Below are positions 45,771 through 46,282 of a DNA stretch of 53,686 nucleotides, one piece after another. Every line of letters begins with the position of its first letter. Position 1 is the first letter of the stretch. Origin of the DNA: a virus. The notes below the pieces were generated by a model. That model ran no database searches. It was not told the DNA's origin and saw only the letters and a program-made list of their open reading frames with translations. The stretch lies in the IMG/VR virus record IMGVR_UViG_3300049825_000213, positions 1 through 53,686 of that record, one strand, 5' to 3'. A program made the position numbers and the translations under genes.

Positions 45771-45866
45771 CTAACCAAACACCCAGACGATAGCCGCGCA
45801 GACTCCTGCGCCGGTCAGGAATACAAACCAACTCGGTATATACACGTCCTCGATCCAGTCTTGCAT
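45771..45866 (-). CDS. Membrane micro-protein, 31 aa
   Basis: MQDWIEDVYIPSWFVFLTGA then GVCAAIVWVFG: one transmembrane helix at the C-terminus. The ATG at 45866 is chosen since GGAGG lies six bases upstream; ATG 45878 is an alternative. Last gene of a leftward cassette of three. A further 19-codon frame starting GTG follows after GGAGGAGG, not convincing enough to list. Confidence 0.5.
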   Translation of the reverse strand: MQDWIEDVYIPSWFVFLTGAGVCAAIVWVFG

Positions 45867-45885
45867 CGTATCCTCCATAATGTGG

Positions 45886-45917
45886 CCAGAGCTACTGAGT
45901 AGTACCAGTAGCTCTGG
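45886..45917. other. Perfect 12-bp hairpin in leftward cassette
   Basis: CCAGAGCTACTG (45886-45897) pairs with CAGTAGCTCTGG (45906-45917) around an 8-base loop. No T run follows. It lies between the Gly-Asp-Tyr micro-gene and the membrane micro-gene and could attenuate transcription or stabilise the mRNA. Confidence 0.7.
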
Positions 45918-45929
45918 ATGTTATTAAGT

Positions 45930-46016
45930 TCAGCCGTAGCCGTCGCCGTAGCCGTAGCCGTCGCCGTCGCCGTCGCCGTCGCCGTCGCCGTAGCCGGAGC
46001 CGTCAGTTACGCCCAT
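45930..46016 (-). CDS. Gly-Asp/Tyr repeat micro-protein, 28 aa
   Basis: The leftward frame starting MGVTDGSGYGDGDGDGDG is a run of Gly alternating with Asp or Tyr, coded by a GGCGAC/GGCTAC hexanucleotide repeat. Its ATG lies inside the last codons of the DUF6948-like gene (10-base overlap, different frame). Could bind metal ions or be a flexible tag; or the hexamer array may itself be the element. Assigned as gene from the tidy start and stop around the array. Confidence 0.45.
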   Translation of the reverse strand: MGVTDGSGYGDGDGDGDGDGYGYGDGYG

Positions 46017-46282
46017 GGCGCGGCCTCCCAGGCCTTGATGGCAACGGCGGTCACATCGGTGACTGACGTGACATCTCGCAACTTAATATCGGCGGCGGGG
46101 CCAATACGGCATGTTTTGCTGGGTCCAGACGCGGCAAGTCCGAGAAACCCATGCATGTCGGCACTCCAATACACACAGTTGCGGCCGGCGCGGAGTTTTA
46201 TCGTCGTTCCGCTGGTGTCCTCGGCATAGCCGAAGAACACGCCACGGTGGGCCGTGGTAACGAGTACTGGTCGTTCTGTCAT
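46007..46282 (-). CDS. DUF6948-like protein, 91 aa
   Basis: MTERPVLVTTAHRGVFFGYA, then TTIKLRAGRNCVYWSADMHG, FLGLAASGPSKTCRIGPAAD and the ending AIKAWEAAPWA. This is a widespread small phage protein that I associate with DUF6948. An AGGAGG lies eight bases before the ATG, and the gene is divergent from the RHH regulator. Function unknown. Confidence 0.75.
   Translation of the reverse strand: MTERPVLVTTAHRGVFFGYAEDTSGTTIKLRAGRNCVYWSADMHGFLGLAASGPSKTCRIGPAADIKLRDVTSVTDVTAVAIKAWEAAPWA

Follow-up and report, generated by a model that had tools for sequence, protein, structure and literature searches.

The locus considered here raises the question of whether a tandem hexanucleotide repeat, translated as a chain of alternating glycines at the very end of a DUF6948 gene, is a gene in its own right and, if so, whether the two genes form a pair. 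In the window (the whole stretch of DNA analysed, a 53,686-base virus record) they constitute a leftward cassette flanked by a tail-fibre-like gene and an endolysin gene, both of which point rightward. Gene 1 (46007..46282, minus strand) encodes a DUF6948 protein of 91 aa. Gene 2 (45930..46016, minus strand), with its ATG inside gene 1, encodes a (Gly-X)n micro-protein of 28 aa, where X is Asp, Tyr or Ser: MGVTDGSGYGDGDGDGDGDGYGYGDGYG.

The earlier note had placed a hexanucleotide array encoding Gly-Asp/Tyr here, and both the ORF translation and Tandem Repeats Finder agree with it: approximately 12 copies of GGC(TAC/GAC/TCC) occupy 45932..46004 of the minus strand, reported as period 6 with 12 copies at 45932-46003 and as period 18 with 4 copies (score 116) at 45933-46004. 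The array is among the shortest of the 77 uncut arrays that we scored (median 70 aa), and the window product is a bare micro-protein, with no folded domain found in gene 2 and no room for another domain in its ORF. Given the very short array, the absence of a folded domain and a location outside the early region, the window copy could be decaying. The TrAA12 family (PF22807) was rejected for gene 2 (13.6 bits vs the cut-off of 30.9), the matches of longer arrays to it looking compositional; the antisense ORF on the plus strand, reading AVAVAV, was dismissed as a by-product of the Gly-X array. The exact 33-mer of the repeat was found in 0 of 385 bacterial genomes, a count not scaled per base against the viral collection. 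Searched by its 869-aa structural protein, the window phage has no close relative in the viral contig collection.

Gene 1 is a member of the Pfam family DUF6948 (PF22253): it scores 80.1 bits (E 1.4e-22) against the curated cut-off of 27 bits, residues 4-85 being aligned to positions 2-85 of the 85-position profile, and its identity to 25 relatives is 48-71%. The AlphaFold2 model (pLDDT 95.9, pTM 0.87) is predicted to be an Sm/LSm-like beta-barrel with a C-terminal helix. The top Foldseek rows obtained with this model are nearly all Sm/LSm proteins, although the best E is only 9e-3, a weak match, and VIA-align yields Z of 7.3 against LSm and 7.1 against the metagenomic Sm-like protein 3by7, both values lying below 8, in a range also reached by common arrangements. 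Gene 1 resembles Sm/LSm and SmAP proteins, 3by7 included, in its predicted small beta-barrel, but differs from Sm/LSm proteins in having no sequence-level match and in the C-terminal position of the helix in the model. No LSM family was detected in gene 1 with Pfam at E up to 1, and no PDB sequence matched the gene 1 profile at E up to 10. The model is suggestive of an Sm/LSm-like fold, but not a proof of it. Searches of PHROGs and NCBIfam with the gene pair gave no informative match.

We then considered how regularly the two genes occur together. Scans of viral and bacterial contigs produced 108 further DUF6948-matching loci (109 with the window), and a Gly-X array was scored downstream in 103 of these 109, whereas the same scoring applied, as a control, to 2.4 kb upstream in six frames found arrays in 4 of 106 loci. 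The six exceptions comprise five loci cut by the contig end and one CRISPR spacer (L042). Among the cut loci, three (L027, L053, L056) extend only 2-31 nt beyond the DUF6948 stop, L027 already showing the first units; L040 extends 188 nt past the stop and breaks off behind a conserved N-terminal stretch that precedes arrays elsewhere; L073 extends 537 nt, beginning with an HNH-like gene. Relatives with a DUF6948 gene and no downstream repeat frame, which according to the earlier note would speak against the cassette, are hence represented by no clear case, as the genuine loci lacking an array all end within 2-537 nt. The array lies 329-725 nt away from DUF6948 in five loci, and 26 of the 103 are truncated by the contig end, an indication that the repeats disrupt assembly.

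The linkage is also seen from the side of the arrays. The 33-base repeat-DNA pattern alone matched at least 120 stretches of viral DNA, and 80 were taken further. Sufficient upstream DNA was available for 65 distinct arrays, and 62 of these lie directly behind DUF6948 (n = 20) or a remote relative, namely protein group B (n = 12) or C (n = 30), the upstream match ending at a median of 42 nt before the array. As the profiles of groups B and C were built from those very loci, their counts are not independent, while the 20 direct DUF6948 cases are. Both groups have the same layout as DUF6948; in hhalign comparisons, C matches DUF6948 with E 4e-6 and B matches C with 9e-12, B to DUF6948 reaching only 3e-3, and the Pfam DUF6948 profile hits a group C member with E 0.003, below the cut-off. 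Of the three remaining arrays, one follows another array and two (L168, L192) follow a VWA-like gene.

Cultured phages carrying the pair are Rheinheimera Barba and Rhodobacter RcapNL, group C being present in 115 Barba records and in RcapNL, where gp47/gp46 constitute such a pair close to the repressor. With the window DUF6948 as the query, tblastn against INPHARED gave no match at E 0.01, while relatives used as queries did match. DUF6948 was found in one of 397 genomes of the order of Rhodopseudomonas. The recognised neighbours of DUF6948 in relatives include Erf/RecT annealing proteins, primases, an exonuclease and repressors, all in small counts. In Rhodanobacter sp. FW104-R8, a CRISPR spacer (L042:2992-3066) reads RGVFFGYATDTS, the most conserved DUF6948 stretch, within a CRISPR array that has a period of approximately 72 bp and, in this locus, over 80 repeats; such a spacer implies a past encounter with a phage of this kind. 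In L088, the last residues of the array ORF, KEVKAWESAPWK, closely resemble the C-terminus of the DUF6948 at that locus; it looks as though the 3' end was copied around the array.

The next question is how gene 2 is expressed. Its ATG starts 10 nt upstream of the point where the DUF6948 stop codon ends and is read in a different frame, so that DUF6948 is read as GCC GCG CCA TGG GCG TAA and gene 2 as ATG GGC GTA. A GGGAGG Shine-Dalgarno sequence (46024..46029, minus strand) lies 7 nt before this ATG, inside the Trp-Glu-Ala codons of gene 1, and the predicted ribosome-binding site is strong (duplex of -10.2 kcal/mol in the window). The conserved C-terminus of gene 1, Trp-Glu-Ala-Ala-Pro-Trp, encoded as TGG GAG GCN GCN CCN TGG, contains both GGGAGG and an NTG 7 nt further on. 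That the repeat ORF overlaps DUF6948, as had been claimed from the window sequence, holds across relatives: a start codon falls between -20 and +15 nt of the DUF6948 stop at 86 of 93 distinct loci, and at 67 of them it is nested at -13 or -10. The mean anti-Shine-Dalgarno duplex energy over the loci is -7.4 kcal/mol, compared to -1.8 for same-frame NTG controls (p 3e-31), a comparison biased by picking the best-energy start in each locus.

Codon usage at the overlap points to selection for the start codon. For the Pro codon preceding the conserved last Trp, CCA is favoured (28/74 vs 46/264 elsewhere, p 4e-4) and CCC is avoided (7/74 vs 62/264 elsewhere, p 0.008); CCA before TGG creates an ATG start, whereas CCC would create CTG, and the CCC loci with an array have an alternative start codon available. 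As the ribosome-binding site and the start of gene 2 usually lie inside the last codons of gene 1, the two genes are very probably co-transcribed and translationally coupled. A programmed frameshift yielding a DUF6948-repeat fusion was considered and rejected, since the frame of the array relative to DUF6948 varies between loci (2, 1 and 0 in 88, 13 and 2 loci, respectively) and a start codon with a strong ribosome-binding site is present.

The composition of the arrays is conserved at the level of residues rather than codons. By the main Gly codon the arrays fall into GGC (n = 78), GGG (n = 15), GGT (n = 2) and GGA (n = 1), and the X codons may be TAT/GAT/TCT as well as TAC/GAC/TCC, the residues being unchanged. 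Of approximately 3,120 X residues, 1209 (39%) are Tyr, 942 (30%) Ser and 810 (26%) Asp; some arrays have Asn in place of Ser, and His and Cys are almost absent. Ala lies one step from Asp and Ser codons, yet only 9 X residues are Ala. All 72 arrays of at least 40 aa have at least 16% Tyr and at least 8% Asp among X, with 5 basic residues in total, the Asp share ranging from 8 to 44% across long arrays. As the same X residues are written in different codon dialects, selection acts on the protein, and the sequence comparison shows that X is restricted, at the protein level, to Tyr, Asp and either Ser or Asn.

On the other hand, the number of units changes rapidly. Ten Barba isolates were compared, nine of which have 0/315 mismatches in gene 1 and 0/480 nt downstream; in these nine the array ORF is 210 or 216 bp, with Tyr/Asn swaps. 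The tenth, Barba19A, has 1/315 and 2/480 differences and an array ORF of 240 bp with the units in another order. Likewise, the uncultured L017 and L018, with 0/264 differences in DUF6948, have arrays one hexamer (144 vs 150 nt scored) and one Ser/Tyr change apart. Thus, the variation in array length that the earlier note expected does occur between near-identical genomes; it was seen in relatives, with lengths taken mostly from assembled reads. These alignments show that the array gains or loses complete hexamers, preserves the frame and evolves faster than its flanks. Repeated six-unit blocks are also in excess (0.094 vs 0.029 in shuffles), a sign of recent duplication. The earlier suggestion that slippage could give phase variation finds no support here as far as on/off switching is concerned, as the unit is 6 bp, lies inside one ORF and preserves the frame; with all Barba and L017/L018 variants in frame, slippage tunes the length and does not switch the expression. 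In L019, L098 and L157 the array or the C-terminal domain loses the frame part-way, which may be a sequencing error or a real mutation.

A folded domain accompanies the array in many relatives. A conserved C-terminal domain (model pLDDT 91) is fused to at least 34 distinct uncut arrays; others carry an N- or C-terminal 'GAC' module, and those of gut phages a third C-terminal domain. The conserved domain is remotely similar to DUF7666 (PF24703) by hhalign (E 2.9e-5, probability 74), the Pfam DUF7666 profile itself giving E 0.018 in one of 31 members. Its model has a weak fold match to the Arr ADP-ribosyltransferase (VIA Z of 5.9, 5.1 and 4.0; first-pass Foldseek E > 1), from which no catalysis is claimed. 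In six frames of the window, profiles of DUF7666 and of this C-terminal domain had no match. The DUF7666 phage repeat proteins combine short tandem repeats with a folded domain, as do the arrays of the relatives, but the repeat types differ and the domain order is reversed in most loci. In a descriptive comparison of L118-L136, phage DUF7666 is nearly always followed by short tandem repeats of more than one type (ATGxxGAAS, AQIGSSGxx, NSGNWNSG), which hints at a general domain-plus-repeat design. In the array ORF of L086 and L090 a DUF7666-like sequence is N-terminal to the Gly-X array, against the usual order.

The genetic architecture of the pair can be accepted with high confidence. As for its role, we tentatively favour a phage two-gene module in which a predicted barrel protein and a multivalent Gly-X polymer may be partners in assembly. 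Gene 2 would then be a low-complexity polymer with Tyr as stickers and Gly, Ser, Asn and Asp as spacers, its valence set by the number of repeats. Its self-assembly, into either a condensate or a polymer rich in beta structure, would involve the barrel protein from the same message as a co-assembling partner or as a chaperone, and its action during infection would be directed mostly at the nucleic-acid metabolism of the host or the phage. The interchangeable folded domains of relatives would be the cargo or targeting part of the polymer, the window encoding the bare polymer. FUS/EWS/TAF15-type low-complexity domains have dense [G/S]Y[G/S]-like motifs and are Tyr-rich, with Gly/Ser spacers. Gene 2 resembles them in all these features, no homology being claimed, and differs by its strict dipeptide alternation, the absence of Arg and Gln, and its phage origin. 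This mechanism of assembly is itself doubtful, and the complete picture, an evolvable phage condensate or polymer system with Tyr stickers, an Sm-like partner, valence tuned by hexamer slippage and folded domains as cargo, is rather unlikely to be right in all its parts.

Several other readings should be weighed against the assembly module. Silk fibroin is an alternating-Gly (GX)n polymer in which the main X is Ala. Gene 2 might similarly encode a structural or adhesive polymer, forming a beta-sheet with a Gly face and a Tyr/Ser/Asp face and serving in the virion, at the cell surface or in lysis, with gene 1 as a chaperone. The perfect Gly alternation agrees with this, as do the short period of other phage repeat proteins, those with DUF7666, the annotation of one array protein as 'lamprin', and the position of the window copy next to the tail-fibre-like and endolysin genes. 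Nevertheless, we consider it unlikely: Ala is nearly absent from X, which in gene 2 is Tyr, Asp or Ser in a very short chain, and the recognised neighbours in relatives belong mostly to DNA metabolism and regulation, not to the virion. The same neighbours, which include the Erf/RecT proteins, would suit an acidic decoy, that is, an unstructured anionic Tyr-rich mimic of nucleic acid. Such a chain would block a nucleic-acid-binding or defence protein of the host, and gene 1 would encode its partner or immunity protein. Every long array does contain Asp and almost no basic residues; however, the charge density is not conserved, given the wide range of Asp shares, and we regard a decoy as quite unlikely.

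If, on the contrary, the hexamer were a selfish or drifting repeat in a harmless 3' overlap, with no protein function, fast length change would be in order, as would the copies with a broken frame (L019, L098, L157) and the very short array of the window. Such a repeat would hardly retain the same residues through different codons or conserve a ribosome-binding site and a start codon, nor would it be reciprocally linked to gene 1 and fused to conserved C-terminal domains, which makes this option improbable. The phase-variable or metal-binding micro-protein of the earlier note has in its favour the length differences between isolates, and is highly improbable in view of both the 6-bp unit, which leaves the frame unchanged, and the near absence of His and Cys from X, not a typical metal-binding alphabet.

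In the literature searched, mostly without subscription papers, we found no paper for DUF6948, DUF7666 or four repeat strings, nor any report of the linkage of DUF6948 to (Gly-X)n arrays or of the Sm-like prediction; the passages found in the Barba phage literature mention neither gene by number, nor the repeat. The pairing thus appears to be undescribed, each gene alone being already in databases. It is widespread: hundreds of contigs from uncultured phages contain it, as do cultured phages, with no annotation beyond that of hypothetical proteins. For DUF6948, it supplies both a partner and a predicted fold. The Rheinheimera Barba isolates, near-isogenic phages whose polymers differ naturally in length, offer a means of testing what a low-complexity protein does in a bacterium.

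Further elements surround the cassette. Two of them, a hairpin and a membrane micro-gene following the repeat, had been counted by the earlier note as parts of the cassette. Both are real features: a perfect 12-bp inverted repeat at 45886..45917 (arms 45886-45897 and 45906-45917; RNA fold of -23.8 kcal/mol, z -4.9) and an ORF of 35 codons that probably encodes a single membrane span (45771..45878, minus strand), for which a start at 45866 is likelier, as the second ATG (45864-45866) has a better-spaced GGAGG. Since no T-run follows it on the minus strand, the hairpin does not qualify as a canonical terminator of this cassette. Neither the hairpin nor the micro-gene could be assigned to the cassette: tblastn detected the micro-gene in none of the 108 loci outside the window and gave no significant match to it among 50,697 phage records.

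Approximately 30 nt upstream of gene 1 there is a promoter-like site, TTGACT-17-TACACT (46314..46342, minus strand), matching the consensus at 9 of 12 positions; it is weak, as chance alone would place 0.7 sites of this kind in the region. A divergent ribbon-helix-helix-like ORF (46330..46542, plus strand), not found beside DUF6948 in relatives, is a possible regulator: it matches the PHROG 4738 transcriptional repressor with E 2.3e-4 and Pfam RHH_1 with E 0.15, below the cut-off. Elsewhere in the window, two pentapeptide-repeat genes (1761-2441 and 2532-3338, minus strand) read (EIGAG)n in antisense, with 15-bp tandem repeats; being the antisense of these genes, the EIGAG arrays at 1992-3215 were rejected as kin of the Gly-X array. 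On the plus strand beyond the cassette, an HNH/AP2-type endonuclease gene (46440-47045) is followed by the endolysin gene (47042-48169; Glyco_hydro_108), the C-terminal part of which matches a PHROG of baseplate hub/tail lysozymes.
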